A stretch of DNA of 51,812 nt from positions 1 through 51,812 of IMG/VR virus record IMGVR_UViG_3300025280_000043. One strand, written 5' to 3'. Positions within the stretch are counted from its first letter, which is position 1, and every line of letters begins with the position of its first letter. Made by a program: the position numbers and the translations under genes. The notes beneath the pieces were generated by a model that worked only from the letters and a program-made list of their open reading frames with translations, had not been told where the DNA came from and made no database searches. Source of the stretch: a virus. Shown one piece after another: positions 24,466 to 40,900 of this stretch.

Positions 24466-27400
24466 CTACATTTTTGGTCTAGATTCTATCTCGCTATGTA
24501 TTCCTTTGCTCCATTCCCTCCATTGATCCATAGAACTTTTTCGTTCGTTTCTATCTTCTATATCCCTTATATGATCAAGTTGTCTTGCATGTTCTTGATT
24601 TCTTAGGCTATATATCTCTCTAAGAAAGCCTGGTAGTCTACGCCATAGCTCTACTTTTGCTTTTGCCTGGCGTTCATTTTTAGGCGCGAATCCCCCGGAA
24701 TAAACTCCACCCAGTGCCTTTCTACCTCTTTGTCTAGCTCCTCTTAGTGCATTTGCGACATGTTGTCCTATGTCACCTCCATCACCACTTCCCATTCGGG
24801 ATGCAAACTGTTGAACAGCAGATTGTCGTTGTCCTTGTTCTCCACGTAAACTATTTACATAATCCAAAGCACCCGTAAATTTTCTTCCAACTGCTTTGGC
24901 TGCTTGTCCATATGCAGCAAATTCTCCAGTTCCTGCCCTTCGTTGGGCTTCTACTCCACCAAACTGTCTTCCAATTTTTTCTCTTTTACTTTCAGGATCA
25001 CGGGCCTGTCCCTTACCTTTACCAGCAGCTTCAGCCATACCCCGTAGACCCACAGAATCAAGGTCTACCTCAAATGGTGCGCCATTTGCTGTAAAGTTTT
25101 CGTGATCAGTTATACCGGGCTGATTACCTAAATGGCTGCCCATAACACCTTCATGATCTAATTCATCATCATGTAATCCTGCGTCAGGATGATCAGGAGT
25201 GTGGATGGAGAACATGTTTGCACCATGTCCAGCCATTGGTGGTGACATTGGCCTATAATCCTCATCACCTTCTTGTCCATGACCTGCATCAAAGTGGCCT
25301 TGAGGATAAATAACCAGTTTATTATTTTTAGCTGCAGCAGCATTCTGACCATGAGAGGCCCTATAGGTATCTTCGTCTACCCAACCTTTACCTCTACCTG
25401 GAATCCAATACTGCTTTTTCATCTCCTCTGTTTTGGGGTCTTTAACCATACGAGTTTTTTCTGGCTTCTTATCTTCACCCTTAGCATCTTTTTCGCCAGT
25501 TGGCCCTGAGCCAGCCTCTTCATGGGCTTGCTGAACTTTATCCTGATGCTCTCCTAGCTGAGGATTCTTTTTAATAGCCGCTAATTTCTCTGGATCATCC
25601 TTTAAATATTCGTCTAATGTGGCATGTGCCCTCTCTTTTCTCTCTAAAGCGGCTTGATCTGAGACTTTTTTATCTGTACCAAGTCGTTTCTTCTGAACAT
25701 TAAAATTCTTTTTAGCGTCTCGTTTAAGCTTACCATGTAAATTATCTATCTTATCTCTGAGTATTTCAAAGTCATTAGTAACATACAGATTTTCTCGTTG
25801 TCTACGTACTATATGACCTTCACGTTCCTTTTCAAACTCTTCATTGGATGCATCTCCAGCCCTAGTCGCTTGGGCAAACATTTTTCCTTGTTCACTCTTA
25901 AAACCACGCCGTTTACTTTCAACATAATCTCCATGGTCGGTTTGAATTTGCTCACGAATAATCGCTGAGTCTGTCTCATGAGAACTTTGCTCTTGTCTCA
26001 TTTGATCTGCGAATCTTGTAGCGTCACCATCGTCTTCTATAAAAGCTTCAAGTCCAGCCGCATCCGCAACTTCTTGCAATGATTTGTTACGAATGTCTCT
26101 AGACTGATTAATAGCATCGTTCTCAGTTTTTCGTGCTGTAGCGTCCGTATGTGCTACGGCAGCATCTATACGTTCCATCCTAGCATGACCATCATCTGTT
26201 AACTTCTGTCTCTCTTCAGCCTGGTTAAGAAGAAGATCAGTTCCTGCTTGAGTCCACTCCTTACCTTCTTGACCAAGATTGTTAGCATGTTTTTCTATTT
26301 CAGTTTGATGACTCTGATGTAAATCTGCTACCTGTTGCTGCGAACCCCGATCAAATTCAGCAGCTTCTTGTTTATGTTGCTGCGTCAAATTACCTAAATA
26401 CTCCGGACTAGCCCCCCTAGCTGCAGCAACATTCGAATCATCTTGCTGCTTCTGATAGAATTGTTCCGAAGTTTTTGATAGCTTATTCCTTAAGTTTGCA
26501 AGTTGACCTGTCTGCTGTTTTGCCAAATCAGCGAAACTAGCGTCTGCATTAACAACTATGTCCATACCTTGCTGGTTATGCTGTTCAACTTCTTCATTAT
26601 GTTGTTTTATCTGCTCGGCTAGTATCGAATTAAGTTGATCGTTAGCTGTAGACCTCGCTTTTTTAGCTTTTTGTTCTGCCTCATAAATAGCATTCATCCT
26701 ATCTGCAGAAGCGTCACCAACATTTTTTTTATGCTGTTTATTTGCTTTATCAATATCTTGATGATAAGCATTATATTCATCTTGTTTCTTTTTTATCTTG
26801 CCATCGTGTTGCGCCAACTGACGCTCATGAGCATCAACAGCTTCATTTATAAGCTTCTTATGATTATCTAGTAATACTTTCTGTCTGTCCCCTTCACCAC
26901 TTACTCGTGCATAATTCGCATCACGCTGACGTTGATGTGAATTCTCTATATCAGCATCAAATTTAGCGTCATTCTCATCATAGTTCCGATCTCGTCCAGC
27001 AGTATTTGCAGTATGAGCATCTGTAGTTTTTTTATGTTCATCCACTTTAGCTGCCTCATGGGCCGCACGTAAACTACTTTCCGCTTCATGATGTTCTCTA
27101 TCACCTTTAGGTATAGCTAATTCAGCGTCATGTATTTCATTAACTAGTTGTTGTAATTTATCATCAGGATACCCATTTTCATCCACAGCATGAACTAATG
27201 GAGCTTTAGCATCTTCATGCTTTATCTCTGAGGTATCATGTTCAGGATCACCATTATGATCTAGCCCACGATGCCCATCATTACCATCTTTATCATAACC
27301 TCTAGAGAAATTACCATTCTCTAAGGCATGGGCAAGTTTTTCATTTTTATGATTAGCCTTAGCAAAAGCGGTTCTTTCGTCACGTTCCACAGTCTCCTTT

Positions 27401-30400
27401 AATTCTTTAGCATGAGCTAGAAATTCATCTGACCCTAAGTCAATACCATTACGTTGTGCTGACTTAATTTCCTCGGCAATCTCTCTAGCAGCCGAAGGAT
27501 TCAGATTAGCATACTCATGTACTCGCTCTCTTAAAGCTTTAAAATTTTCTGGGTCTCCGGATTTCGGGTCGAAATGCTGGAAATTTTCTTTTCGATGTTG
27601 AAAGTCTATTAACTCTCTAAAATGTTCTTTAGCCATTTCAGGACTCATTTTTTCACCATCATGTTCCTTAGCCCACTTATCTGGGTCTGGAAAGTTGTCC
27701 TCGAACTCAGCGACAGCCCTTATTTGATCGACTCCTCTAGCCCTATTCTGTTTTTCTTGCTTTTGTTGAGCTTCTTGGTTAGCTACTAAATTAGTTTGAG
27801 CTTTTACAGCATCTGTAATATCTTTAAGAGTAAAGCCAACGGACGGATCATAATGCCTCTCAAGTTTTGTAGTGGCTCTGGTCATTGCATCCTGATCAAG
27901 AACCTCGTCATCATCACCAATCAAATCAGGATTCTGTAATCGAGCTAATCGTTCCAAAGCCGCAGTACGATTCGGTTTATCTTTTTCTGTAGGCTTTGCT
28001 CCTGCAGATGCTGAGGAAGCAGTCCGAGCTTTCGGATCACGTACCTCTTTATTCCACATCTCCTTTATTTCTTTATCTGACATATCATCAGGATTATCTA
28101 GATGTTCATGGAAGTCTCCATGCATAACGTTCTTTAAGTCTTCTACCTGACGTTTTCGTGGTGAAAGATTTTTCCTTCTATATCTCTCGTGTATTTTCTG
28201 TGTAGCTTCTGCTGCTCTATCTGGTATCTTTCCCCAATCTTCGACCTCGGCACCAAAACCCGGTAGTCCTGCATGAGCTAGTCTAGGGTCTTCTTCTTCC
28301 GCTTGCTCCATTGCAACATGTGCCTGAACGAACTGATTCCTAACCTCCTCATTCTCCTTAAGAGCTATCTCCAGTTCACCAAATTTATCTGGGTCTGTCA
28401 AGACTTCTCTAAATGTGTTCATAACATCACTTGATGTCATTGCATCTACGTCATGTCCTAGATGAGCTAAAAGCGGTTTTATTTGATCACTAACTTTACT
28501 AGGAATATGGATTTCCTCATCCAAATTGGCTCTTCGTTGCCTAGCTTTTACTCCTTTCTTTGCCACAGCGTCAGCCGCAGAAGTAGGTTCAGGTGTAGAC
28601 ATAGGCTCAAAACCCATATCTTCAAACAGAGGTAGCTGTTTCCCATAATCTGGAGGAGTTTCAGCAATGTCTGGATAATCAGTTGCTACAGTTTCATTTA
28701 TTGAGTTATGAATTTTTTCGCCAGCGTCAGCAACCTTAATCTCATCAGATTCTATACCACTCTTAACCTCCTTAAGTTTTTCTTCGGTAATTTTCTTTGC
28801 TGTATCAGGATTCATTCCTTTATTTTCAAGTATGCTTTGTTCAATTTGTTGTATACCACCAAGTCCTGCAATAAACTCTCCGTGGTCGCTCGAAAAATCA
28901 TTACCAATTCGACTAGTAAGAAGTCTATTCCTAACCATCTCTCCATTTACTACAGAAAGATCGGGTGCTTGATTAGGCTCTACAGGAACTCCATTATCTG
29001 TCAGAGCTTCTCCAGTACGATCATTATGCGTTTTTTCTAATGTAGGAAGACCTTTCGCTACAGCAACCTTATTCATGTCATCTATTAGATGATTAAGGAA
29101 CGTACCACTGTTACCTATACCTACAATATTACCCTCTTTATCTCTGAAGTTCATTCCACGACGCCTATTAAACTTTGTAGCAATCGTGTCTTTATGTTTT
29201 TCAAAATGATCAACTGCTTCGTTAACCATTGGCCCAATTTGTTCAAAGAAGGCTTTACCCATTTCTGTAGGATTACCATCTTTATCTGTCAGCCCACGCT
29301 CACAAGCCACTCTTTTTGCAAAACCACTTTTCAACAGCGTTTTAGCTATGGCCTCTACCTCTGGAGAGATATTTTCTGCTGCTTCTAACACTTCTGGTTC
29401 TGGTGTGTCGCCTGACTCTTCTGCCTTTTTTGCATCAGCATCTGCTTCAGGAGTTTCTACAACAGGAGTTTCAACCACAGGAGTTTCTACAACAGGAGTT
29501 TCTACAACAAGTGGTTTATTTATTACAGTACCAAGCTCTGGTTCCATTATGTCTATATGTTGCCCGACTTTTTCTCCAGTAGGTTTACCATCCTTATCAA
29601 GGATATCCATATTTCTTATTTCACTAAAATGTTCATGATGTGGATGACCTGACTCTTTAAGATGCGTTATATAGTCCTGAGCTTGCGCCACAGTGCCTAC
29701 ATATTCACCATCTTTCGGTTCGTTTCCTTGCGAGTCAATGTATTTGCCTTTTATCTTACTATATTCATTTCCATCCCTATCTACCCACGTACCTTTTATG
29801 ACCTTACCTTTGTCATTCTTCTTACTTTCAAGCATGGGCGTTCCCATAGGGTCAAAAAGTTGCTCCCTACCTTTTCCAAGTTTACCTAAAAGAGCTTCTA
29901 AACCAGTATCAGAAATCGTTCTAGAAAGCTCTTCTTTAGCCTTGTCTGACAGTTGTTTCTTTGGGTCTTCTGGCTCAAGTGGGCCTTCAATAGTAGCTGG
30001 TGTCTTTTCCCCTGCAGATGATTCAGCCGCAGCGGCCCTCTCTGCATCCGCAGCGGCCCCCTCTGCAGCCGCAGCGACCCCCTCTCTCTTAATGGCAGCA
30101 TCAATGTCGCCTCTTTTCCAAGTTGGGTTTTCATCAAGGTGATTAAGCAGCGTATTTTTCATATTATCTGACATTTCAGTTATATTTTCTTGAGTATATC
30201 CAGCAGCCCTAAGCCGCCTGTCTCCACTTTTTTGTCGGCTGACCACCTGTTCAATGTCATTTCTGCTATGAGAAATATCTTCCGAACTTATCTTAACCCT
30301 AGCTACTAACTCATCATCAGACATACCCTCTAACTCGGAAAGTCTATACCCACCTCCATACAAGCTGCTCAATCTGGTTATAACCGTTGCTTTATTATAG

Positions 30401-31692
30401 GCAGGGTCAATCTCTTTTAATCTAGCATCAAGAGCAGATTCAGGTTTAGCCTCAGTTACCACTGCTTCTTCTGCTTCTTCTTGTGCTGTTTTAACAGTTT
30501 TTGCAAGTGTTTCCTGTAAATATTGCCTATATTTCTCTTGGTCAAGCAAGCCATCCGTTTGAAGCCCTTTCATCTTTGCTATTTTACCGATTTGATTTCT
30601 ATCAAACCCTTTAGCTACCAGTGCAGCCTCTAATTGAGTGGTATTAAGTTCCGCAATCTCCTCCAAAGTCTGGATTTGAGGAAGTGTACTATCTGCATCT
30701 AGAGGCTCAATTCCTTCATCGGTGTCTTCCCCTTTATCAGGCGTAACTTCAGGTTGAGTAGACTCCTGCTCTGTAGGGGATGTGTCCGTATCCACCCTAG
30801 CTTGAGTTCCTACATCTAATAAATCATTATGATTATCTATATTTCCTATTTTATGAGGATAATAGAAAGGGTCTCCTTGTTTACGGACAGAAGGGTCTAC
30901 ATTAATAGTAATATTACTCGTTGATCCTCTGGATTGGCCCTTCTCATTAATGCCATCAAGTTCTACATTATAACCATTGAGACGATTTACTTTAAATAAG
31001 TCACCTTGTTCATTTCGTACAAGGCTTCCAAGCTTCAAATCAGTATTATACTTATTACCACTTTCCCATTTTATTGGGAATATACTTTTTACCCCATCTT
31101 TTTTCTTAGATGTAACTTTCTCTGGAACATCAGATGTGGCGGTCTTAGGCTTAGCCGCAGGTTTAAACATGGCTGGATGCGATTTAGCCGTAGGTCGCTC
31201 CTCTCCAGCTATTCGTGCATCGTCACTTACTGCCATCCTATCTGGGATAATACTTGCTATATCCTTAAGACTTATTTCCAGAATAGGTTTACCCGAAGAA
31301 GTCGCCATAGGTGGATGATCTTTACGAAGTTGCTCTATAACTGCGTTTGAATAGTTCCTGTCTAGAAGATATTGTAAAGCATCCTCGTGGAAATGTTGTG
31401 GTTCTTTCGCCTTTTCCAATAATATATCTGTATCAGGCGAAGCCTCCGGCAGGTTCACAAAAGCGGCAAGCTTATTTACAGCAGACTGAGAGCCACCATT
31501 GTTGGAATATCCATTAGAAAAATGACCATTAGTCTTAACAAAACCCATCTCCAACGCTTCAGCATTATTTTCACTCTGTTGAATACGTTGTCGAGCCATA
31601 TTCAAAACATATTCATCTTTGGATATTTTAGCTGGTGGAACGATATCTGGATCATCCATAAGACTATTATAAATGTCTGTAAGTCGCGACAT
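24466..31692 (-). CDS. Giant protein of unknown function, 2408 residues
   Basis: Starts at the ATG at 31692, which has an AGGAGA five bases away; the frame is open 15 codons further up but without an SD. The protein is overwhelmingly hydrophilic and helical. It contains four PVVET pentapeptide repeats (window 29450-29509), an Ala/Glu repeat encoded by three 21-base units (30027-30086), and roughly 600 residues of Gln/Lys/Glu/His-rich coiled coil in the second half. It has a His/Asp/Gly-rich segment and a basic helical C-terminus (LWRRLPGFLREIYSLRNQEH). No enzyme motif was found by eye. The first large virion-operon gene; an internal or ejected virion protein is possible. It is unlikely to be the tape measure because the chaperone-linked candidate is elsewhere. 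Confidence 0.75.
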   Translation of the reverse strand: MSRLTDIYNSLMDDPDIVPPAKISKDEYVLNMARQRIQQSENNAEALEMGFVKTNGHFSNGYSNNGGSQSAVNKLAAFVNLPEASPDTDILLEKAKEPQHFHEDALQYLLDRNYSNAVIEQLRKDHPPMATSSGKPILEISLKDIASIIPDRMAVSDDARIAGEERPTAKSHPAMFKPAAKPKTATSDVPEKVTSKKKDGVKSIFPIKWESGNKYNTDLKLGSLVRNEQGDLFKVNRLNGYNVELDGINEKGQSRGSTSNITINVDPSVRKQGDPFYYPHKIGNIDNHNDLLDVGTQARVDTDTSPTEQESTQPEVTPDKGEDTDEGIEPLDADSTLPQIQTLEEIAELNTTQLEAALVAKGFDRNQIGKIAKMKGLQTDGLLDQEKYRQYLQETLAKTVKTAQEEAEEAVVTEAKPESALDARLKEIDPAYNKATVITRLSSLYGGGYRLSELEGMSDDELVARVKISSEDISHSRNDIEQVVSRQKSGDRRLRAAGYTQENITEMSDNMKNTLLNHLDENPTWKRGDIDAAIKREGVAAAAEGAAADAERAAAAESSAGEKTPATIEGPLEPEDPKKQLSDKAKEELSRTISDTGLEALLGKLGKGREQLFDPMGTPMLESKKNDKGKVIKGTWVDRDGNEYSKIKGKYIDSQGNEPKDGEYVGTVAQAQDYITHLKESGHPHHEHFSEIRNMDILDKDGKPTGEKVGQHIDIMEPELGTVINKPLVVETPVVETPVVETPVVETPEADADAKKAEESGDTPEPEVLEAAENISPEVEAIAKTLLKSGFAKRVACERGLTDKDGNPTEMGKAFFEQIGPMVNEAVDHFEKHKDTIATKFNRRRGMNFRDKEGNIVGIGNSGTFLNHLIDDMNKVAVAKGLPTLEKTHNDRTGEALTDNGVPVEPNQAPDLSVVNGEMVRNRLLTSRIGNDFSSDHGEFIAGLGGIQQIEQSILENKGMNPDTAKKITEEKLKEVKSGIESDEIKVADAGEKIHNSINETVATDYPDIAETPPDYGKQLPLFEDMGFEPMSTPEPTSAADAVAKKGVKARQRRANLDEEIHIPSKVSDQIKPLLAHLGHDVDAMTSSDVMNTFREVLTDPDKFGELEIALKENEEVRNQFVQAHVAMEQAEEEDPRLAHAGLPGFGAEVEDWGKIPDRAAEATQKIHERYRRKNLSPRKRQVEDLKNVMHGDFHEHLDNPDDMSDKEIKEMWNKEVRDPKARTASSASAGAKPTEKDKPNRTAALERLARLQNPDLIGDDDEVLDQDAMTRATTKLERHYDPSVGFTLKDITDAVKAQTNLVANQEAQQKQEKQNRARGVDQIRAVAEFEDNFPDPDKWAKEHDGEKMSPEMAKEHFRELIDFQHRKENFQHFDPKSGDPENFKALRERVHEYANLNPSAAREIAEEIKSAQRNGIDLGSDEFLAHAKELKETVERDERTAFAKANHKNEKLAHALENGNFSRGYDKDGNDGHRGLDHNGDPEHDTSEIKHEDAKAPLVHAVDENGYPDDKLQQLVNEIHDAELAIPKGDREHHEAESSLRAAHEAAKVDEHKKTTDAHTANTAGRDRNYDENDAKFDADIENSHQRQRDANYARVSGEGDRQKVLLDNHKKLINEAVDAHERQLAQHDGKIKKKQDEYNAYHQDIDKANKQHKKNVGDASADRMNAIYEAEQKAKKARSTANDQLNSILAEQIKQHNEEVEQHNQQGMDIVVNADASFADLAKQQTGQLANLRNKLSKTSEQFYQKQQDDSNVAAARGASPEYLGNLTQQHKQEAAEFDRGSQQQVADLHQSHQTEIEKHANNLGQEGKEWTQAGTDLLLNQAEERQKLTDDGHARMERIDAAVAHTDATARKTENDAINQSRDIRNKSLQEVADAAGLEAFIEDDGDATRFADQMRQEQSSHETDSAIIREQIQTDHGDYVESKRRGFKSEQGKMFAQATRAGDASNEEFEKEREGHIVRRQRENLYVTNDFEILRDKIDNLHGKLKRDAKKNFNVQKKRLGTDKKVSDQAALERKERAHATLDEYLKDDPEKLAAIKKNPQLGEHQDKVQQAHEEAGSGPTGEKDAKGEDKKPEKTRMVKDPKTEEMKKQYWIPGRGKGWVDEDTYRASHGQNAAAAKNNKLVIYPQGHFDAGHGQEGDEDYRPMSPPMAGHGANMFSIHTPDHPDAGLHDDELDHEGVMGSHLGNQPGITDHENFTANGAPFEVDLDSVGLRGMAEAAGKGKGQARDPESKREKIGRQFGGVEAQRRAGTGEFAAYGQAAKAVGRKFTGALDYVNSLRGEQGQRQSAVQQFASRMGSGDGGDIGQHVANALRGARQRGRKALGGVYSGGFAPKNERQAKAKVELWRRLPGFLREIYSLRNQEHARQLDHIRDIEDRNERKSSMDQWREWSKGIHSEIESRPKM
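29450..29509 (-). repeat. 15-base tandem repeat encoding PVVET x4
   Basis: Four copies of a 15-base unit (plus strand GGAGTTTCTACAACA; the second copy has two changes) inside the giant gene. They encode Pro-Val-Val-Glu-Thr repeats, probably a flexible linker. Confidence 0.9.
30027..30086 (-). repeat. 21-base tandem repeat encoding Ala/Glu-rich segment
   Basis: Nearly three copies of a 21-base unit beginning CCGCAGCG on the plus strand, inside the giant gene. They encode an Ala-Ala-Ala-Glu-type helix or linker. Confidence 0.8.
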
Positions 31693-31740
31693 AGTATCTC
31701 CTAAACATAGATCAGCTATATGCTGAATCAACAGCACTAC

Positions 31741-32054: not shown

Positions 32055-32333
32055 TTAAACGCCAGTGTCATCAATAATTAATGGATGATAGGAATCATAA
32101 GAAACTATACCTTTATATACATGAGAATCAGCGTATTCTACTGCGTCCTCTTCTGACAGCCCCTTATTATTAATAAGAAGTTCTGTATACTTAACATACG
32201 AGTATATTCCTAATGATGCCCCATATTGAGTTCTATAAATGCCGATTAAAGCATCATCCATATCCTCATACAGAATACCACCATTTTCCTCGTCTGTCAA
32301 AACTTCTCTGATCCTACTACCTTTACTCATCAT
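32055..32333 (-). CDS. Hypothetical protein
   Basis: 92 residues, acidic, with a compact helical middle (MDDALIGIYRTQYGASLGIYSYVKYTELLIN). Not recognised. It begins at the tandem ATG ATG behind AAAGGATAG, 28 bases downstream of an AGTATAATGT motif. First gene leftward from the non-coding repeat region. Confidence 0.65.
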   Translation of the reverse strand: MMSKGSRIREVLTDEENGGILYEDMDDALIGIYRTQYGASLGIYSYVKYTELLINNKGLSEEDAVEYADSHVYKGIVSYDSYHPLIIDDTGV

Positions 32334-32370: not shown

Positions 32371-32490
32371 CTTCAAATAGGGTTTTATTTTATAATTACA
32401 AAAATTTAGCTAGGACGTTTTGAAAAAATAGTCTTGGTAAATAGTACCCTAGATTAATGGTTACCTACAAGGAAACATAATAGTATAACC

Positions 32491-32536
32491 GGGGGGTCTA
32501 TATAAAGGAACAAGCTAACTTTTTAAGACACCCCCC
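32491..32536 (+). other. G6/C6 inverted repeat before the repeat array
   Basis: GGGGGGTCT (32491-32499) pairs with AGACACCCCCC (32526-32536), leaving a two-base bulge and a loop of about 26 bases. A plus-strand AGTATAA stands just before it (32482), so it could be the 5' hairpin of a rightward transcript or a structure protecting it. No long T-run follows. Confidence 0.45.
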
Positions 32537-32735
32537 TTCATCGTAATAGATTATAATATATTATTAAACGAATAAGTTTTTTAGTTATTTAATTAGTTAC
32601 TTACTTATTATTAATTAGTTAGTTATTAGTTAGAAAGAAATAATTATTAGTTGAAACTATAACTAGTTAAAGTTATTTAATCGTCTAGACCCACGGGGGT
32701 ATATTTACAGGCTTGAGTCAGTTTTAGAGGTTGAC

Positions 32736-34133
32736 TTGAAACCAGTTCACCCCCACCCCCTTCAAGAGGGTGTTGTGGACAGGGAGCCTGTGGAGGGTCA
32801 GGGCCAGCTAGAGAGCCTAGCCTAGAGGTGCTGCTGGCAGAGTGAGGGCTGACTAGCCTGTCAGGTAGAGGTGTCAGGCAGGTAGCTAGGCTGCTGTGGG
32901 TGTGCTGTGTAGGGTGTGTAGGCAGTGTGTAGAGCATGTAGACAGAGTGTAGAGCCTTGAGTGCAGAGTGTGGTGTGTAGAGGTGTCTGTGAGGCTGCTG
33001 AGAGGCAGGGCAGTGAAACCGAAATAGCTAAGATAAGACGAGTCTAGGCCAAGTTGACAAGAGCTAGGAGCTTGGTGTACACTGTAGAGATTAAGCTATG
33101 TCAGCTACAAGTAAGTAGGCTAGTGACTAGTGGACACAGGAGATGTGGGTGTAGGCGTGTACATCTACAGCAGGGTCACGGTCACAGACATCAGGGTCTC
33201 AGTGTGTAGAGACTGAGGCTGACTGTCTAGCTAGGTGGACACAGAGGCTAGCTGTCAGGTGGTCAGGCATGGTCGTCTAGAGCGTCAACTTGAAACCGAA
33301 ATAGAGTTAGTAAAGATAAGAACAGCCCAGCGTAGGACTAGCTACAGGAGGGTACAGGAGCCTGAGAGCTATCTACAGATAGCCTAGAGAGTGGCTAGGA
33401 CGAGCTACAGAGACTACAGAGATCGGTGGGAGCTAGACAGATAGCCAGAGGTCACTAGAGAGTCTAGGCACAGGAGGTAGAGAGTCTAGAGCCTAGCAAG
33501 CTAGATAGCTAGAGAGTCTAGGAGCATGGTGACCAGAGTGTACAAGAGATGTCAGCTAGAGTGACTGACTTGAAATGAAATAGGATTAACTAGCTATGTA
33601 TATAAGGTAAGGTAATAGATAAGTTAAGTAAAGTCTAGGCTAGATAACTAGTTATAGAGACTAGAGACAGACTAGGATAAGATGTAGAGACCACAGGGAT
33701 CAGAGAATAAGTATGTACATAGACAGAATTTTACTAGAGTATATAAGTAAGAGGTGTGGAGAGTGTAGACTAAGCAGCTAGACAAGTAGCTAAGAGACTA
33801 GACACACCATGTCCAGTAAGCATGGTGGTGGTGCTGAGAGGGCTGGACTTGAAACGAAATGAGATTAACTATCTATATATATAAGTTAAAGTAATAAGTA
33901 AACTACGTAAAATCTAGACTATAGAACTAGTTATAAAGATTCGTAAAAGCTTAGTACAGGCTACAGAAGTTGCAGGAATCAGAAGAGTTAAACAGGTTAG
34001 TAAAATCTATTAGAAGGTTTAAGTAAGAGCAACACAAAGATGTAGGATGCAGCAGCTAAATAAGTAAACTACATCTAGAAATATACTAATCTGTGTGATC
34101 AGACAGGCTCAGTTAGAGAGGTTGATTTGAAAC
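32736..34133 (+). repeat. Degenerate tandem repeat array, period about 278 bp, CTAG-rich, non-coding
   Basis: A boundary motif, (T)TGAAACCGAAATAG and variants, usually preceded by a GAGAGG...TGAC-like stretch, recurs with its TGAAA at 32737, 33014, 33291, 33571, 33850 and 34128, spacings of 277, 277, 280, 279 and 278. Units 4 and 5 can be aligned along their first roughly 90 bases (GATTAACTA, TATAAG, AACTAGTTATA shared). Units 2 and 3 share TGAAACCGAAATAG and AAGATAAGA. Composition drifts from GC-rich (first unit) to AT-rich (fifth). CTAG occurs 12 times in the third unit alone, where about one would be expected. TAG stops crowd every plus-strand frame. Together with 32340-32735 (AT-rich, TTAG-repeats, one hairpin) this fills the 1.8-kb divergent gap. 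Origin, untranslated RNA and packaging functions are all possible. Confidence 0.8.
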
Positions 34134-34155
34134 GGTATAAAGAAAGGATACCCTG

Positions 34156-34488
34156 ATGACAACTGATATATCTAAACAGGATAGAGACGCTACAGCCAGC
34201 GCTGTATACTGTATAGAAACTAACAAAAATATAGATCGTTTAGTACATGACATGCTACATTCATGTAAAACAGTAGAAGAATATACTGAAAAACTTAGTG
34301 GCTTACTTAAAATATTTTGGGGAAAAACTACGCCAGAAAAAAAGAATCTGGATGATGTAAACTGGCTAGAAGTAATGGTACAGATAATACCAACAAAATG
34401 CTTGATATCTATATTTAAACAATCTATATTAAAACTAGAAGGAAAGGAAAACGACAATGAAGAAACAGAAAACCCATGTGGCAGATAA
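34156..34488 (+). CDS. Hypothetical protein
   Basis: 110 residues, helical and acidic-to-neutral (DRLVHDMLHSCKTVEEYTEKLSGLLKIFWG). Not recognised. First rightward gene after the repeat array; the last repeat boundary motif lies 28 bases upstream, followed by the SD AAAGGA. It overlaps the next gene by 32 bases, so an operon of three to five tiny genes is likely. Confidence 0.65.
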   Translation: MTTDISKQDRDATASAVYCIETNKNIDRLVHDMLHSCKTVEEYTEKLSGLLKIFWGKTTPEKKNLDDVNWLEVMVQIIPTKCLISIFKQSILKLEGKENDNEETENPCGR

Positions 34489-35128: not shown

Positions 35129-35153
35129 TTAGACATAATAATTATCAACTCCC
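35129..35153 (+). promoter_or_regulatory. Operator-like dyad, copy 0 (25-bp exact repeat)
   Basis: A 25-base sequence around the quasi-palindrome GACATAATAATTATCAACTC, located 20 bases upstream of the -35 box at 35173. The identical 25 bases recur at 35763-35787. A likely protein-binding site controlling the cassette promoters. Confidence 0.6.
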
Positions 35154-35172
35154 AAAATCTTCATAGAGGCTA

Positions 35173-35200
35173 TTGACACTACATGTCATTCTGCTATACT
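35173..35200 (+). promoter_or_regulatory. Sigma-70 promoter of the 35265 gene
   Basis: TTGACA (35173-35178), 16-base spacer, TATACT (35195-35200). Transcription should begin near 35207, giving a leader of about 58 bases with a hairpin. Confidence 0.8.
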
Positions 35201-35238
35201 CCTTGTGTAGGGGATGACACCTCTAACATTACAAAGGA

Positions 35239-35252
35239 CAGCCGAAAGGCTG
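35239..35252 (+). other. Leader hairpin with GAAA tetraloop
   Basis: CAGCC-GAAA-GGCTG, a five-bp stem closed by a GNRA loop, 12 bases upstream of the ATG at 35265. The leader of the 36431 gene has a comparable GAAA hairpin. Confidence 0.6.
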
Positions 35253-35264
35253 AGAGTGAACAAA

Positions 35265-35609
35265 ATGGGATTTTGGGATAACATCACCCTCCTGCGAGCT
35301 AACGTCGTCGAAGGAAAAAGTGCAATAGCTAACGATAGCGCTGACCAAGTAGATCGAAATGTCGATAAGACTCAGGACGATATCATTAGGGCGGAATTTG
35401 AAGCATCAGTCAGGAATCTACCCAAAGATAAAATCTCGGATTCAAACGGAAATTGCGAAACTTGTGGCTCATATGCTGAGGGATTAGGAAATGGAATTTG
35501 TGCCAAGTGTTGGGATTATGTGGTAAACTTCTCATCCGCTAACAGCAAAATTTGGCCTGATGCCACCCAGTACGAAACCATTTACCAAGCGAGGTTAAAC
35601 CTAGGCTAG
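35265..35609 (+). CDS. Small protein with FWDNI start and zinc ribbon
   Basis: 114 residues from the ATG at 35265 (MGFWDNITLL). An in-frame ATG at 35214 is only about 7 bases from the predicted transcription start and would abolish the leader. The C-terminal half contains CETCGSYAEGLGNGICAKCWDY, a four-cysteine zinc ribbon. The N-terminal FWDNI is shared with the minus-strand gene at 37768-38241, which also has a cysteine pair, so the two are probably distant paralogues. It is a single-gene cassette with its own promoter. Function unknown. Confidence 0.75.
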   Translation: MGFWDNITLLRANVVEGKSAIANDSADQVDRNVDKTQDDIIRAEFEASVRNLPKDKISDSNGNCETCGSYAEGLGNGICAKCWDYVVNFSSANSKIWPDATQYETIYQARLNLG

Positions 35610-35616
35610 TCATAAA

Positions 35617-35643
35617 ACACCTGAGCAAGTGTATAAACTGCTC
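35617..35643 (+). ncRNA. Pseudoknot-like element, copy 1
   Basis: ACAC (35617-35620) can pair with GTGT (35629-35632), and GAGCA (35623-35627) with TGCTC (35639-35643), in H-type pseudoknot order, with CT and an A-rich linker ending AAAC. It starts 8 bases after the stop of the 35265 gene. Four further copies preserve both stems with different bases. Confidence 0.65.
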
Positions 35644-35664
35644 AAAGGGATTGACAAAAAACTA

Positions 35665-35760
35665 GACTTGATAGAATTATCAACTCTCGTTCCTTCCACG
35701 TTCCTTTCCTTCCACGTTCCTTTCCTTCCACCTTCCTTTCCCTTTCCTGCTCTCTCTATA
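35665..35760 (+). repeat. Dyad plus pyrimidine tract, junction 1
   Basis: A dyad GACTTGATA-GAAT-TATCAACTC (35665-35686) is followed by an almost pure C/T tract of about 75 bases. This includes three 16-base tandem units starting CCTTCCAC (35692-35739). The operator-like dyad at 35763 closes the module. No gene lies in the 35610-35906 gap. Confidence 0.7.
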
Positions 35761-35762
35761 TA

Positions 35763-35787
35763 TTAGACATAATAATTATCAACTCCC
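35763..35787 (+). promoter_or_regulatory. Operator-like dyad, copy 1
   Basis: Exact 25-base repeat of 35129-35153, 30 bases upstream of the -35 box at 35818. Confidence 0.6.
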
Positions 35788-35817
35788 GTTTTTTTGGTTT
35801 TCACTATAGTCATAAAT

Positions 35818-35846
35818 TTGACAAGGGGGTACGACTGTGCTACAAT
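35818..35846 (+). promoter_or_regulatory. Consensus sigma-70 promoter of the 35907 gene
   Basis: TTGACA (35818-35823), 17-base spacer ending TGTGC, TACAAT (35841-35846). The leader holds a GGGAG...CTCCC hairpin (about 35855-35873) before the SD GGAG. Confidence 0.85.
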
Positions 35847-35906
35847 ATTGATGTTGGGAGAAGTACCACTCCCGACAAAATATTTAGAATAAGGAGCGTG
35901 TGAATT

Positions 35907-36107
35907 ATGGTTAACAAGGCACTCAGAGAAGCGATGTACATTGAAGATGGCTTTGTGGTTATCGTCAAGAAGATTGCGCCTCGGCCCGCGAAATCCGGCA
36001 AGTCTGTGTTGCTTGCCACAACCTCGGGAACCGAGTCATTCATTCATGAAGACAAGAACGTTCAAGTCAATTTGAACGTCTACGTTCCTCATGTAGCGAA
36101 AGGTTAA
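35907..36107 (+). CDS. Small beta-rich protein, paralogue of 36941-37171
   Basis: 66 residues. The segment SVLLATTSGTESF and the ending VQVNLNVYVP match SMLLATTRGAETF and IKANVNLYVP of the minus-strand gene at 36941-37171, so the two are paralogues in opposite orientation about 0.85 kb apart. The family function is unknown. It is a single-gene cassette with a consensus promoter, a hairpin leader and AAGGAG upstream of the ATG. Probably strongly and early expressed. Confidence 0.8.
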   Translation: MVNKALREAMYIEDGFVVIVKKIAPRPAKSGKSVLLATTSGTESFIHEDKNVQVNLNVYVPHVAKG

Positions 36108-36198
36108 GGCACAGGGGGTAGCAAGTAGCTTGGTACACTACGAAAGCTACCCCACCAAATTCAAAGCATAGGAGTTAGCATATGCCGCCCCCGATTCT

Positions 36199-36226
36199 AT
36201 GACCTGAGCAAGTCATTAAACTGCTC
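36199..36226 (+). ncRNA. Pseudoknot-like element, copy 2
   Basis: ATGAC (36199-36203) pairs with GTCAT (36212-36216), and GAGCA (36206-36210) with TGCTC (36222-36226); the linker is TAAAC. About 90 bases after the 35907 gene. The 36108-36430 gap otherwise holds a dyad (36246-36273), a pyrimidine tract (36271-36329), an operator-like dyad and a promoter. Confidence 0.65.
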
Positions 36227-36245
36227 TTTAGTTTTGCCATTTTTC

Positions 36246-36329
36246 GATTTGATAAATAGATTTGATAAGAGTCTTTCCGTTCCTTCCATTCCCTATTCCC
36301 TGTTCCTTCCTTGTGTCCCCTCTTTTTTA
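36246..36329 (+). repeat. TTGATAA elements plus pyrimidine tract, junction 2
   Basis: Two TTTGATAA copies (36248-36255 and 36261-36268) lead into GAGTC and a C/T-rich tract of about 55 bases (TTCC repeats), then the operator-like dyad at 36330. Same order as junctions 1 and 3. Confidence 0.6.
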
Positions 36330-36349
36330 GACATGGTAATTATCAAGTC
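36330..36349 (+). promoter_or_regulatory. Operator-like dyad, copy 2
   Basis: GACATGGTAATTATCAAGTC, a 20-base dyad with two mismatched pairs, 9 bases upstream of the -35 box at 36359. Confidence 0.6.
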
Positions 36350-36358
36350 CTGTTTTAT

Positions 36359-36386
36359 TTGACAATACCTCTAAATGTGGTACTAT
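36359..36386 (+). promoter_or_regulatory. Sigma-70 promoter of the 36431 gene
   Basis: TTGACA (36359-36364), 16-base spacer ending TGTGG, TACTAT (36381-36386). Confidence 0.75.
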
Positions 36387-36393
36387 AGAGAAG

Positions 36394-36409
36394 TCAAGGG
36401 AAACCTTGA
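36394..36409 (+). other. Leader hairpin with GAAA tetraloop
   Basis: TCAAGG-GAAA-CCTTGA, a perfect six-bp stem with GNRA loop at the 5' end of the predicted transcript, before the SD CGGGAGG. Confidence 0.65.
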
Positions 36410-36430
36410 ACACTCTATCGGGAGGCTCGA

Positions 36431-36700
36431 ATGATTACCTACGCCCCTACCTATGTGCCTAGTGATCGAAAGTATCGAGTCGAAGTACGGGAAATTACGT
36501 GGAATGATTCTTCTCCTAGCGTTGTATACCCTTCTGATAGGATTCGCTATAGTCACTGGGATGCGGTACGCAAAGCGGTAGAATTTATTTCGGGTTTGTC
36601 GTGTTTCTCTATTACCGCTATGCGTGAGGAATTGGGTTGGTATTGTGAATCCGATCATGGCGACTTACTTACAGTCGAAATTGTAGAAAGTGAGGTGTAG
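36431..36700 (+). CDS. Hypothetical small protein in + cassette
   Basis: 89 residues, mixed alpha/beta (YRVEVREITWNDSSPS, SHWDAVRKAVEFISGLSCFSIT, LLTVEIVESEV). Not recognised. Third single-gene cassette with its own promoter and hairpin leader; a pseudoknot-like element begins 7 bases after the stop. Last rightward gene before the convergent minus-strand genes. Confidence 0.75.
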   Translation: MITYAPTYVPSDRKYRVEVREITWNDSSPSVVYPSDRIRYSHWDAVRKAVEFISGLSCFSITAMREELGWYCESDHGDLLTVEIVESEV

Positions 36701-36706
36701 CTTTGG

Positions 36707-36733
36707 CGACCTGGGCAGGTCGAAAAACTGCCC
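36707..36733 (+). ncRNA. Pseudoknot-like element, copy 3
   Basis: CGAC (36707-36710) pairs with GTCG (36719-36722), and GGGCA (36713-36717) with TGCCC (36729-36733); linker AAAAAC. Both halves of the second stem changed together relative to the other copies (GAGCA/TGCTC), a compensatory change. Confidence 0.7.
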
Positions 36734-36753
36734 ACCGCTCACTTGACAAAAGT

Positions 36754-36885
36754 GAGTTGATAAACTTATCAAGTCTCTTTCCATTCCTGATTCCCTTCCT
36801 TCCTTTCCTGTTCCCTTCCTCTATGGGAGAGGAGGGTAGACATGATAAGAATATATCCCTCTCTATATAAAAGCTATCATGTCTA
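36754..36885 (+). repeat. Dyad, pyrimidine tract, dyad: junction 3
   Basis: GAGTTGATAA-AC-TTATCAAGTC (36754-36775), then a C/T-rich tract to about 36822, then an 11-bp perfect inverted repeat TAGACATGATA (36837-36847) / TATCATGTCTA (36875-36885). A hairpin CTCACTT-GACA-AAGTGAG (about 36738-36755) precedes it. The convergent gap 36701-36940 holds no gene. Confidence 0.65.
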
Positions 36886-36940
36886 ATTTTGGGCAAAGAA
36901 ATAGGGCAGGTGTGCCAAACCTGCCCGATTCCTAGCTAGC

Positions 36941-37171
36941 CTATTTCTTGGATTTCTTGGCCTTAGCTTCCCATTCCTCAATAGGAACATAGAGATTGAC
37001 ATTGGCCTTTATCTCCATGCCTTCATAGGTGAAGGTTTCGGCACCCCTAGTAGTAGCTAGAAGCATTGAAATCCCTTTCTTACTGAGCGTAGGCAGTATC
37101 GGAAAGCGCATTACAATTTCGCCATTCTCAACTGTATACTTATCGGCTGGGTTTTTGGGCTGATTAGCCAT
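36941..37171 (-). CDS. Small protein, paralogue of 35907-36107
   Basis: 76 residues. SMLLATTRGAETFTYEG and NVNLYVP align with the plus-strand gene at 35907, and the C-terminus is a Lys/Ala-rich tail (WEAKAKKSKK) absent from the paralogue. Its own promoter lies at 37234-37262. Just downstream a GGGCAGG...CCTGCCC inverted repeat (about 36904-36928) may end the transcript. Function unknown. Confidence 0.75.
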   Translation of the reverse strand: MANQPKNPADKYTVENGEIVMRFPILPTLSKKGISMLLATTRGAETFTYEGMEIKANVNLYVPIEEWEAKAKKSKK

Positions 37172-37233
37172 TAGTCACCATCCTGTACTATAGTGTACGG
37201 TTTCAGCGGAGCCGTCTCGCTTGGCACATGACC

Positions 37234-37262
37234 AGACTATCACCGTTCGCAACTGTTGTCAA
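37234..37262 (-). promoter_or_regulatory. Sigma-70 promoter of the 36941 gene
   Basis: TTGACA (37257-37262), 17-base spacer, TAGTCT (37234-37239), read leftward. The downstream CCAAGCGAGACG resembles the CAAGTCGA motif of the other minus promoters. Confidence 0.7.
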
Positions 37263-37560
37263 ATTTGTGCCTAACACTAGCTACTCTATAGAGAATCTAT
37301 AAAAAAAATGGGGACATGATAACTCTACTCTGCCCTACACTCTGTAGAGTACTGCAGGTATCTGCCCTGCCCTATAGTATAGGGATTGTTTTTCCTTTCC
37401 CTTTCCTATCCTTTCCGCTTCCGACCTTGTTCCTATTCGACATGATAAAAAATTATCATGTCACAAAAAACAGGAACAAACTCAGGGAGTCTGTCCTGCT
37501 CTGTGATGCTCTACAGTGTAGAGCTATGCAGTGTATTGCATTATTCTGTAGGGTATTGGC
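37263..37560. other. Gene-free stretch with pyrimidine tract and dyads
   Basis: No convincing gene. Contents: a perfect palindrome CCCTATAGTATAGGG (37370-37384), a C/T-rich tract (37389-37438), a perfect ten-bp inverted repeat GACATGATAA-AAAA-TTATCATGTC (37439-37462) related to the operator-like dyads of the + cassettes, and a CTGTAGAG-rich segment. Confidence 0.6.
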
Positions 37561-37767
37561 CTACTCTGTTATACTCTGTACCCACCTTATCAGTTCTGCA
37601 GGTAGAGGCATTGCTCTCTCCTGTACTGCTATGGTTCTTCCCTTCACATGCTCTTTCAAGACTGTCTTCCAAGTCTTTACTGCTTTTCTGTTACTCTTTC
37701 TCACAATATTTACATACTCTCCTGTCTGTGCTAGTCTAGGTCTATCAGATACTATATAGCGTTTCAT
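37561..37767 (-). CDS. Hypothetical small basic protein
   Basis: 68 residues, basic (VRKSNRKAVKTWKTVLKEHVKGR). Not recognised. It starts immediately after the stop of the 157-residue gene with GAGAGCG as SD, so the pair is co-transcribed from 38284-38312. Confidence 0.65.
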   Translation of the reverse strand: MKRYIVSDRPRLAQTGEYVNIVRKSNRKAVKTWKTVLKEHVKGRTIAVQERAMPLPAELIRWVQSITE

Positions 37768-38241
37768 TTATTCGCTCTCCTCTATACTGTCCTGTGTTGC
37801 ATTGTAGACTGTCGTAATATCTCTAATGTCTGCGTCCTCTGCAATAGAGCCTGTCTCCACTGTGGGTGGGACTAGAGTAGCATTGAAGATACTCTGCTCA
37901 TCCCATCTGTTACTGAACCACTTTTCCCCACTACAGTTCTTGCATACACCTATAGCCCATGCAGTCTCTGAAGGTATTATCCAGTAGTGCGTACAGTCTT
38001 CTGCAGGTACTACCAATCCCTCTATAGTCTCGTATACTCTCTCAGCCTGTGCTACTGCTTTGCTCTTCTTAGCAGTCTTCTTCACTGCCTTAGGCTTGCT
38101 CTGCTTTACAGGCTTAGTCTCTACACCTAATCCTATACTCGCCCAGAAGTCCGATGTAATTACGACAGCGCAACCATTCACCACTATAGTATCTGTTACT
38201 GTCTCGTAAGACTTGAGAATGTTATCCCAAAAGCTACTCAT
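37768..38241 (-). CDS. FWDNI-start protein with cysteine pair
   Basis: 157 residues. It begins MSSFWDNILKSYETV, like the plus-strand gene at 35265. A Lys/Ala-rich linker spans residues 45-70 (KPKAVKKTAKKSKAVAQ), then CTHYWIIPSETAWAIGVCKNCSGEKWF gives CxxC plus another Cys/His for a possible zinc site. The C-terminus is acidic. Function unknown. SD AGAAGGAG. Confidence 0.7.
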   Translation of the reverse strand: MSSFWDNILKSYETVTDTIVVNGCAVVITSDFWASIGLGVETKPVKQSKPKAVKKTAKKSKAVAQAERVYETIEGLVVPAEDCTHYWIIPSETAWAIGVCKNCSGEKWFSNRWDEQSIFNATLVPPTVETGSIAEDADIRDITTVYNATQDSIEESE

Positions 38242-38283
38242 GTTGTACTCCTTCTATGCTTGGCGTTTTCTCGACTTGCCAAA

Positions 38284-38312
38284 AGTATAACATCGTTAAA
38301 ACCAAATAGCAA
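38284..38312 (-). promoter_or_regulatory. Family promoter for 38241/37767 genes
   Basis: Leftward TTGCTA (38307-38312), 17 bases, TATACT (38284-38289), followed by TTTGGCAAGTCGAGAAAACG, the conserved start of transcripts in this region. The adjacent 38313-38436 is low-complexity and gene-free. Confidence 0.8.
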
Positions 38313-38436
38313 ATTTCCTAGAGCATTTACAGACTGTCTTACTCTGTGTGTGATAGTTATATACTATACTCTTTTATCTTTGTAAATCTCTAGTAGCTAT
38401 TTCTACTGTACTGTTATACTCTGTTCTGTTCTGCTA

Positions 38437-38598
38437 TTACTCTTTCCTGTCTTGATTATAATATAACTTCTTCCTTCTGATTTCCTGTTCATCTATATAC
38501 TTTAGGTCTTTCCTAATGTACTTCCTTGCTTCCTTTATAGTCTCTAAGTCATAGAACTTTTGATACTCTATTATGAATGCTTTCAGTTCAGATATCAT
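38437..38598 (-). CDS. Small helical protein, 53 residues
   Basis: 53 residues starting MISELKAFIIEYQKF, highly helical and basic (IKEARKYIRKDLKYIDEQEIRRKK). The ATG overlaps the TGA of the 50-residue gene (ATGA), the typical coupling overlap. Function unknown. Confidence 0.6.
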   Translation of the reverse strand: MISELKAFIIEYQKFYDLETIKEARKYIRKDLKYIDEQEIRRKKLYYNQDRKE

Positions 38599-38747
38599 TC
38601 TTTTCTCCACCCCTTCAGTAGGGCATGAATAAGTTTCGCTTCCTTGCTTCCTATAGTCTTATCTCTATCAATCGCTTTCTGTACTGACTTTGCATTGTAC
38701 TTGGCTGTAGCAATTCCACCTGTAGAGTCATTGTATATGTTTACCAT
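38595..38747 (-). CDS. Small protein, 50 residues
   Basis: MVNIYNDSTGGIATAKYNAK..., then a Lys-rich helix ending LIHALLKGWRKE. The ATG overlaps the previous TAA (TAATG) behind AAGGGGGGG. Part of a three-gene micro-operon. Confidence 0.6.
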   Translation of the reverse strand: MVNIYNDSTGGIATAKYNAKSVQKAIDRDKTIGSKEAKLIHALLKGWRKE

Positions 38748-38833
38748 TACCCCCCCTTCTGACTAGGACAGTCTTGCTTATGGAATTGGATTCTGAAATA
38801 GAAGGAGTAGGCCATCCCACATGAGTTACACAT
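38747..38833 (-). CDS. 28-residue zinc-finger micropeptide
   Basis: MCNSCGMAYSFYFRIQFHKQDC...: CxxC, then HxxxxC, enough ligands for a single zinc finger. SD AAGGAG lies 8 bases upstream and the promoter 38875-38904 just before it. First gene of a micro-operon with overlapping stop/start codons, which supports real translation. Confidence 0.6.
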   Translation of the reverse strand: MCNSCGMAYSFYFRIQFHKQDCPSQKGG

Positions 38834-38874
38834 ATCAGTATCTCCTTGGTGATTCGTTTTTCCTCACTTCAAAT

Positions 38875-38904
38875 AGTATAACACGAAAACAAAACTTGTG
38901 TCAA
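38875..38904 (-). promoter_or_regulatory. Family promoter for the 38833 micro-operon
   Basis: Leftward TTGACA (38899-38904), 18 bases, TATACT (38875-38880); begins GGGATTTGACA directly after the stop of the preceding gene. Confidence 0.85.
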
Positions 38905-38910
38905 ATCCCT

Positions 38911-39096
38911 CTATACTTGTAGGACTCTATCCAATGCTTTGAACACTCTTACACTAGGTACTGTAAAATACCGACTAGAGTATCGCTCTGCTGTCCAAAG
39001 CATTCTGTCATACCTACTGACTTTGAATGCTCTACTCATATGCCAATACTCTAGCAGTTCCCCCTCATCAATATCACTACCATTCACATACAGCAT
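38911..39096 (-). CDS. Hypothetical small protein
   Basis: 61 residues, rich in Tyr and Arg (KVSRYDRMLWTAERYSSRYFTVPS). Not recognised. SD GAAGGAG; own promoter at 39128-39157; the stop is followed within 7 bases by the next promoter. Confidence 0.7.
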   Translation of the reverse strand: MLYVNGSDIDEGELLEYWHMSRAFKVSRYDRMLWTAERYSSRYFTVPSVRVFKALDRVLQV

Positions 39097-39127
39097 AACA
39101 ACTCCTTCGTTTTTTCACTTCCTCAAA

Positions 39128-39157
39128 AGTATAACATGAAAACGAAACTATTGTCAA
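39128..39157 (-). promoter_or_regulatory. Family promoter for the 39096 gene
   Basis: Leftward TTGACA (39152-39157), 18 bases ending CATGT, TATACT (39128-39133), then GAGGAAGTGAAAAAACG. Confidence 0.85.
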
Positions 39158-39167
39158 ATCCCCTGCA

Positions 39168-39494
39168 CTAAACAGGAACTAATACTTTTGCACCATTTGA
39201 ATCATCAAAGTAACGATTGTACAGTAGTGTAGTGTACTGTCCTAAATCATCATTATCGTCTACTCCATATTCCTCAGCAGTATGAACCCATCTTTGAACA
39301 TACTCTATAGAATAGTTAGGGTTAGTGTTGTACCTTGCCAAGTAGTGCATTACTGTTGCTACTGCATTGGCAGGTCTTTCATCTGTTCCCTCTACTACAT
39401 ACTTGCTTCCAAACTTAAACTTCCAGTAGTTAGCACCTTCCGCTTCCCCATAGTTCTCCATGTATTGTGTATATACGGATATGCTCATTTTCAT
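39168..39494 (-). CDS. Hypothetical protein
   Basis: 108 residues, beta/alpha (MSISVYTQYMENYGEAEGANYWKFKFG; VATVMHYLARYNTNP). The YTQYMENYGE start resembles short phage proteins of unknown role. Own promoter at 39520-39548, SD AAGTGAGG. Confidence 0.7.
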   Translation of the reverse strand: MKMSISVYTQYMENYGEAEGANYWKFKFGSKYVVEGTDERPANAVATVMHYLARYNTNPNYSIEYVQRWVHTAEEYGVDDNDDLGQYTTLLYNRYFDDSNGAKVLVPV

Positions 39495-39519
39495 ACCTCA
39501 CTTGTTTCGACTTAGCTAA

Positions 39520-39548
39520 AGCATAACACAAAACAAATCGCTTGGCAA
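39520..39548 (-). promoter_or_regulatory. Family promoter for the 39494 gene
   Basis: Leftward TTGCCA (39543-39548), 17 bases, TATGCT (39520-39525), then TTAGCTAAGTCGAAAC. Confidence 0.8.
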
Positions 39549-39555
39549 ATCCCTA

Positions 39556-39765
39556 CTACAGATACCATGAAAGATTCTTTTCTGTAATCTCTGATTCTGC
39601 TGTACTCTCCTCACTATCATAGTAAACATCAATCGTATAAGCAAAATCACCAGTAGTAGTTACATTTACCTGTTCCCGTAAAGCATTTAGTATTGCAAAT
39701 TCTACATCTTCTCTCTCATCATGAGAGAACAGTTCCTGTAATCCTTGATACTGTACTCTTGCCAT
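39556..39765 (-). CDS. Hypothetical small acidic protein
   Basis: 69 residues, acidic (SHDEREDVEFAILNALREQ, DSEESTAESEITEK). Starts 3 bases after the stop of the 73-residue gene. No motif recognised. Confidence 0.65.
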   Translation of the reverse strand: MARVQYQGLQELFSHDEREDVEFAILNALREQVNVTTTGDFAYTIDVYYDSEESTAESEITEKNLSWYL

Positions 39766-39768
39766 TAG

Positions 39769-39990
39769 TTACTCTCCTCCGTAGATAGGTCTATCAAAGT
39801 CTATAATTACTTCATTACACTTCACACACTCAACAGCTACAGTTTCACCATTGCCATAATTAGCAATCTCTATTGCACTACTCTGAATAGTTGACTCTAA
39901 TTCTATAGTACATTCAGAATGTGTCAGCAGTTTGTTATACATAACGTATACATAACTAGGTCGATTATACATACTTTCTTTAGTACTCAT
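39769..39990 (-). CDS. Hypothetical small protein with CxxC
   Basis: 73 residues from the ATG at 39990, chosen because GGGAGG lies 4 bases away and it makes an ATGA overlap with the 204-residue gene. CVKCNE near the C-terminus is a lone cysteine pair. Function unknown. Confidence 0.65.
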   Translation of the reverse strand: MSTKESMYNRPSYVYVMYNKLLTHSECTIELESTIQSSAIEIANYGNGETVAVECVKCNEVIIDFDRPIYGGE

Positions 39991-40601
39991 TGTTCCTCCC
40001 ATGCTCTCACTTTAGTATAGCCTTTATTTTTCCTATGCTGTACCCATGTCACTGCTTGTACTACATTGTAGTGTACACCAAGTTTCTTGCTTGCTAGTTT
40101 ATAGGAAGTCTGCATCCTTCTCATTACTTTAGGACTACTAAAGGCTCTGCTTTTGTCACGCTTAGAAACAGGCTTCCCATAATATATAGTCTGAGCATGG
40201 CTGTCTACTACAGGTAGATAGTTTCCATAAGGCTCTACTATTGCATGGTAGAAAGGAACAACTTTGTTTCCACCCAATACAGTGTCAGGGTCTTCCCCTT
40301 CACTAATCCTCTTAGCCTTTGCATTGTTTGCACTGGTCTGCTTTGTACTGTAGCCTAGTGAAGTAAACTTCAATGCTTCAGCTACATTATCTCCCCAATC
40401 TGTCTGAGGCGATAAGGCTGCTAAGATACCTGCACCTACTCGTATATCTTCAGTGCCTAGCAGTTTACTTACTTGCATTGCTATGTTATTAGCATCCGTG
40501 TACCAGTATTGCCCTTCAACTAAACTATCCGCTGAAGCCCTGTTATAAGCCTCTACTATATTCTGGTAAGAACCCTTGACTACATTCTCTGCTTTAGCCA
40601 T
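39987..40601 (-). CDS. Conserved phage protein with VxSPQxxW-type motif
   Basis: 204 residues. The pattern LAALSPQTDWGDNVAEALKF, then DPDTVLGGNKVVPFYHAIVEP and PVVDSHAQTIYYG, matches a widespread family of small phage proteins that I remember only as uncharacterised. The helical SPQxxW core and the VDSHA segment recall helix-hairpin-helix DNA glycosylases, but the catalytic Lys/Asp cannot be assigned by eye. It lies in an operon from promoter 40846-40874. Confidence 0.6.
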   Translation of the reverse strand: MAKAENVVKGSYQNIVEAYNRASADSLVEGQYWYTDANNIAMQVSKLLGTEDIRVGAGILAALSPQTDWGDNVAEALKFTSLGYSTKQTSANNAKAKRISEGEDPDTVLGGNKVVPFYHAIVEPYGNYLPVVDSHAQTIYYGKPVSKRDKSRAFSSPKVMRRMQTSYKLASKKLGVHYNVVQAVTWVQHRKNKGYTKVRAWEEQ

Positions 40602-40809: not shown

Positions 40810-40845
40810 AGTACACTCCTTTGCTTCGTTTTCCGACTTGCTTAA

Positions 40846-40874
40846 AGTTTACCACGGCGACAAGTTGGTGTCAA
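40846..40874 (-). promoter_or_regulatory. Family promoter for the 40809 operon
   Basis: Leftward TTGACA (40869-40874), 17 bases, TAAACT (40846-40851), then TTAAGCAAGTCGGAAAACG. Preceded by TAGGGAT. Confidence 0.85.
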
Positions 40875-40900
40875 ATCCCTAGTGCAGTTATACTGTCATC

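Follow-up and report, generated by a model that had tools for sequence, protein, structure and literature searches.

A lineage-specific array of diverged 278-bp units, possibly an untranslated leader, at a divergent junction of an uncultured tailed phage

Genes and features around the divergent junction

The DNA analysed here, referred to as the window, is IMG/VR record IMGVR_UViG_3300025280_000043, a linear stretch of 51,812 bp from an uncultured tailed phage. Among its genes are those for a DnaG-type primase, a DnaB-type helicase, a sigma-like factor and the tail, and we take the open frame of its first 1.8 kb to be an apparent family-A DNA polymerase. The window overlaps a near-identical record, IMGVR_UViG_3300009413_000010, which runs ~7.6 kb beyond the window's right end, into head genes. 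A bacterial host is suggested by strong sigma-70-like promoters (TTGACA-17-TATACT, with copies at 38853 and 39106); the promoters at 38264, 38853 and 39106 lie on the minus strand, and the 38853 and 39106 copies are 77% identical over 57 nt. In contrast to the host suggested by these promoters, the nearest named phages for the major capsid protein (L132 8180-9040) and for gp16530 (16530-17657) are the archaeal tailed viruses HVTV-1/HCTV-1. The window also encodes a Mom-family DNA modification protein (46899-47564) and a leftward protein of 2423 aa with no family match (24466-31737), whose homologue in the related record G018 has 1540 aa, with similarity confined to the N-terminus. A 15-bp repeat at 29448-29509 has one copy fewer in two near-identical records.

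As the sequence-only reading had stated, the array lies in a divergent gap between leftward and rightward genes. The gap is bounded on the left by gp32055 (32055-32333, minus strand; 92 aa, phrog_13182) and on the right by gp34156 (34156-34488, plus strand; 110 aa, no family), which is preceded by a AAAGAAAGGAT ribosome-binding site. The predicted structure models of gp34156 (pLDDT 57) and gp2230 were of too low quality for any use. Between gp32055 and the array, pattern scanning and synteny delineated a control element at 32458-32503 (TGGTTACCT-N14-TAGTATAACCGGGGGGTCTATAT), and an inverted repeat of a G-run and a C-run, GGGGGGTCT ... AGACACCCCCC, spans 32490-32536. Its stem is predicted by DNA folding, with a z-score for the whole region of just -0.4. 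An AT-rich tract follows at 32552-32681; among the 130-bp windows of the record it has the lowest GC content (13.8%) and the least stability, and it is a candidate promoter or unwinding region. Further to the right, at 35129-37460, are three rightward single-gene cassettes with repeated parts in common, namely a ACCTGAGCAAGT..AAACTGCTC hairpin, (TTCC)n tracts and an operator-like TTAGACATaATAATTATCAACTCC, and a perfect palindrome, GACATGATAA-AAA-TTATCATGTC, is found at 37439.

Geometry and composition of the array

The array extends over ~1.4 kb and is marked by six TGAAA boundary motifs at 32737, 33014, 33291, 33571, 33850 and 34128, spaced 277, 277, 280, 279 and 278 bp apart, exactly the positions and the period of about 278 bp previously claimed. 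Unit 1 (32717-32993, plus strand as for all units; 56% GC, 5 CTAG) carries TGAAAC at its boundary, and unit 2 (32994-33270; 51% GC, 7 CTAG) carries TGAAACCGAAATAG. These are followed by unit 3 (33271-33550; 50% GC, 12 CTAG), unit 4 (33551-33829; 37% GC, 10 CTAG) and unit 5 (33830-34107; 33% GC, 3 CTAG), so that the reported fall in GC content from the first unit to the fifth holds. The sixth boundary motif (34108-34138, plus strand) directly precedes the ribosome-binding site of the first rightward gene, its TGAAA lying 28 nt before the start codon.

To score periodicity, runs of at least six matches at lag 278 ± 3 were compared with dinucleotide shuffles. The score was 73, whereas the shuffles averaged 5.4 and never exceeded 14, and all tested lags away from 278 scored 25 or less, the best of them (557) being twice the period. 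Tandem Repeats Finder did not detect the array because its units are too diverged. In global alignments against dinucleotide shuffles, units 4 and 5 gave a z-score of 11.1, bearing out the clear alignment claimed for this pair, and they are 73% identical across 147 nt. Scores for the other pairs were 6.4 (units 3/4), 5.6 (1/3), 4.6 (2/3), 3.8 (2/5) and 0.2 (1/2). Units 3-5 are homologous throughout their length, with unit 3 alignable to both 4 and 5, while units 1 and 2 have little in common past the boundary. A profile built from units 3-5 detected neither unit 1 nor unit 2, and found no additional copies in the window.

All six reading frames are closed, each containing all three stops repeatedly. 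The exclusion of plus-strand translation proposed from the sequence is thereby confirmed and extended to all six frames, and a degenerate protein-coding repeat, including one with recoded stops, was rejected. On the plus strand ATG and TTG reach about half their expected numbers, and TAG is at least doubled on both strands. Plus-strand purine content is 55-68% through the array, about 50% in the control region and 37-47% in the gaps between leftward genes; exceptions to this rule are two TTCC-rich intergenic gaps of the plus strand at 35.6-36.4 kb, with 44-45% purine. From this purine bias we infer probable rightward transcription of the array into a 1.4-kb untranslatable leader, although no convincing rightward sigma-70 promoter was found directly upstream of it.

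Since CTAG had been described as dense in the array and normally rare in phage DNA, its frequency was determined across the window. The density stands, with 12 copies in unit 3 and 37 in the 1.4 kb, versus 28 expected from the array's own CTA and TAG counts, an excess of about one third. The scarcity does not, since 205 copies were found outside the array versus 221 expected. The dinucleotide signature of the array (CpG 0.2, AA/TT about 0.5, CT/AG 1.6-1.9, TA 1.4) recurs at 37.2-41 kb on both strands, coding sequence included, and weakly across much of the genome. The array seems to be an unmasked extreme of a dinucleotide bias found across the genome, and this bias accounts for most of the CTAG excess. 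CTAG was therefore rejected as a special signal, as it is at expectation elsewhere in the phage and its excess tracks this bias. The shared bias is no signal in itself, and means that the array sequence has long been resident in the phage. The signature is common to coding and noncoding DNA at 37200-41000 and is absent at 34.2-37.2 kb, a pattern that suggests newer cassettes between older DNA.

A repeated RNA had also been proposed; as a structured array, it could be ROOL/GOLLD-like or a tandem series of small RNAs that are processed and fold functionally. The rightward purine loading is compatible with such an array, as is the precedent of phage ICP1, in which a highly transcribed, ~1-kb orf-less region yields a measured noncoding transcript and gene-free gaps give abundant noncoding transcripts of ~0.8-1 kb (PMC7567579). 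However, neither strand folded more stably than its dinucleotide shuffles (mean z -0.08 on the plus strand and +0.57 on the minus), and Rfam covariance models, those of GOLLD, ROOL and OLE included, searched at E values up to 5 gave no family except one chance match. RNAalifold, applied to the three alignable units only, returned a weak covariation term and many broken pairs. A structured RNA lacks support, and we consider this explanation improbable. GOLLD and ROOL are large ornate noncoding RNAs of phage genomes (PMC12286853); the array is likewise a large noncoding element of a phage genome, but it has neither an Rfam match nor excess structure and does not lie beside the phage tRNA gene.

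The junction in related phages

Alignment of the capsid protein identified more than 80 related uncultured contigs, and gp21623 brought in further long ones. A homologous divergent junction is present in three records, G018, G031 and G033. In G018, a leftward giant gene and two leftward genes are followed by a 334-bp gap and then by rightward small genes. G031 has homologues of gp31755 and gp32055 on the leftward side, the latter 37% identical and at the same junction, and the layout of G033 is that of G031 and the window. The control element is common to the window, G031 and, in weaker form, G033 at this junction, where the three share a TAGTAYAA..GGGGG..TATAT element with GGTTACCT or GGTTAACC ahead of it.

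The sequence-only reading had pointed to this site in related phages as a place where the array might recur. The junction is indeed found there, without the array: the 278-bp period is absent from the junctions of G018, G031 and G033, and the boundary motif occurs in none of ten relatives. In near-identical records that cover the junction the array is 100% unchanged, and these therefore add no evolutionary information; the closest relatives outside the species (G005, ~90% identity in the helicase) stop short of the array site. The array had no BLAST match in the phages, plasmids and E. coli genomes searched, and pattern scans in IMG/VR returned, beyond the near-identical records, single-match, chance-like hits among the matches listed. 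In our judgement, an old control region shared with relatives has gained the array in this lineage. A 916-bp gap of G018 with 213/248-bp repeats was considered as an array homologue and rejected, as it has two exact duplicated blocks, is at a different genome location and is non-homologous. In that record, the noncoding gap at L228 18188-18640 holds exact duplications of 67 nt and 55 nt, 248 and 213 bp apart, and a TTGACT...TATACT promoter-like block.

As relatives that share the junction lack both the periodicity and the motif, the array is no origin or packaging element common to the family. A replication origin would have the boundary motifs serve as initiator-binding direct repeats beside an AT-rich unwinding tract, by analogy with oriR of the Bacillus phage SPP1, where a long intergenic region flanking moron genes contains direct repeats and an AT-rich unwinding element (PMC6316719). 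The array resembles this arrangement in that direct repeats and the least stable tract of the record adjoin one another in a long noncoding gap that lies amid late genes and beside small moron genes. The record also encodes a primase, a DnaB-type helicase and the apparent family-A polymerase, and strand composition switches at the junction, although divergent transcription explains this switch equally well. Unlike SPP1 oriR, the repeats are ~278 bp apart, a spacing much wider than that of usual iterons; they are absent from the three junction-sharing relatives, and no initiator was recognised, the neighbouring proteins being without family. The array has no DnaA box. The earlier proposal of an origin with spaced sites is thus unsupported, and we regard an origin as unlikely. 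A packaging or DNA-wrapping element, also put forward from the sequence and here taken to have phased sites, would fit the constant unit length. Against it, the CTAG sites show no helical phasing, the head genes are 20 kb distant and the array is missing from relatives, which together make it very improbable.

Boundary conservation and a possible untranslated leader

Ungapped identity among units is 0.65 in the 16-bp boundary versus 0.28 in the interior, where only units 4/5 reach 0.50. On a 278-bp lattice the boundary is the most conserved position, with a mean identity of 0.66 (16-bp window median 0.29, sd 0.09), and the interiors of units 1-3 are at chance level. The motif has no further occurrence in the window, and a search of genome contigs gave three matches, equal to chance. 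A boundary hairpin was dropped as a candidate since, read by eye, it was visible in four of the six copies rather than in all. In simulations of neutral indels, five units stayed within 3 bp of one another in fewer than 7% of runs for most parameter choices, and in 21% with the mildest parameters, so that a 3-bp range of lengths seldom survives neutral indels except where little divergence is combined with small indels. Because the interior diverges while the boundary persists, and because neutral indels rarely preserve length, both the boundary motif and the unit length are probably under selection, as had been suggested for unit length; the case is good, short of proof.

The serious rival is slow neutral decay. 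Here the array would be a near-neutral relic of an old tandem duplication, in a leader that the phage could do without, its period and boundary persisting via occasional re-duplication or conversion and not through function. The three array-free junctions, the chance identity of the unit 1-3 interiors, a composition that tracks the phage's own dinucleotide bias and the absence of RNA structure are all in keeping with a relic. A relic would not, however, be expected to keep its boundary once the interior is saturated, its constant length is improbable under most neutral parameters, and 1.4 kb of useless DNA would have been retained by an otherwise mostly coding genome. We judge this explanation possible, if on the doubtful side.

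Our preferred, still tentative, reading is that of an untranslated leader which arose by tandem duplication in this lineage and in which boundary and spacing have been retained as repeated recognition sites. A noncoding segment of ~278 bp would have expanded in tandem within the interval from a bidirectional control region (the shared element and AT-rich tract, 32458-32710) to the first rightward small gene, and rightward transcription would produce a 1.4-kb untranslatable leader. A boundary element of ~25 nt (TCAG-TTAGAG-n-GGYTGACTTGAAACsGAAAT) would be maintained at constant spacing as a putative site that is recognised by a protein, on DNA or RNA, or used in RNA cleavage; its last copy lies just ahead of the first gene's ribosome-binding site. 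We favour a leader because the period and boundary conservation exceed chance and the 3-bp length range is unlikely under most neutral parameters; because the array is purine-rich on the plus strand, depleted of ATG and TTG and enriched in TAG; and because the sixth motif abuts the ribosome-binding site, the motif is confined to the array within the window and relatives share the junction without the array. Counted against a leader are the want of a convincing upstream sigma-70 promoter and of a hairpin common to the six boundaries, the purine exceptions at 35.6-36.4 kb, and the steady drop in GC along the array, for which it does not account; the constant length may also stem in part from recent duplication of units 3-5. 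In a more specific and quite improbable form, short conserved repeats would alternate with diverged spacers of a fixed ~250 nt, and the transcript would be cut at the repeats into equal-sized untranslated RNAs, the last cut freeing the first mRNA. If true, such a repeat-spacer array of equal-sized cut RNAs would be of a kind hitherto undescribed.

The SPP1 origin and the ICP1 transcript indicate that origin and noncoding-transcript functions both occur in such gaps. Like ICP1, a lytic phage, this phage has a gene-free gap of about 1 kb that possibly gives a noncoding transcript; the ICP1 transcript was measured, whereas transcription of the array is deduced from its composition, and a tandem period does not feature in the ICP1 description consulted. 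The phage satellite PLE also has a noncoding region with repeats, several families of which serve replication with proven RepA binding (PMC7145576); function is proven for PLE and putative for the array. The junction, its control element and the array-free relatives offer a natural comparison with and without the array. Were the array a decaying relic, it would warn against reading function from a strict period and abundant CTAG alone. If boundary and length are selected, it would serve as a compact test of why a phage genome that is mostly coding retains 1.4 kb of regularly spaced, untranslatable DNA.
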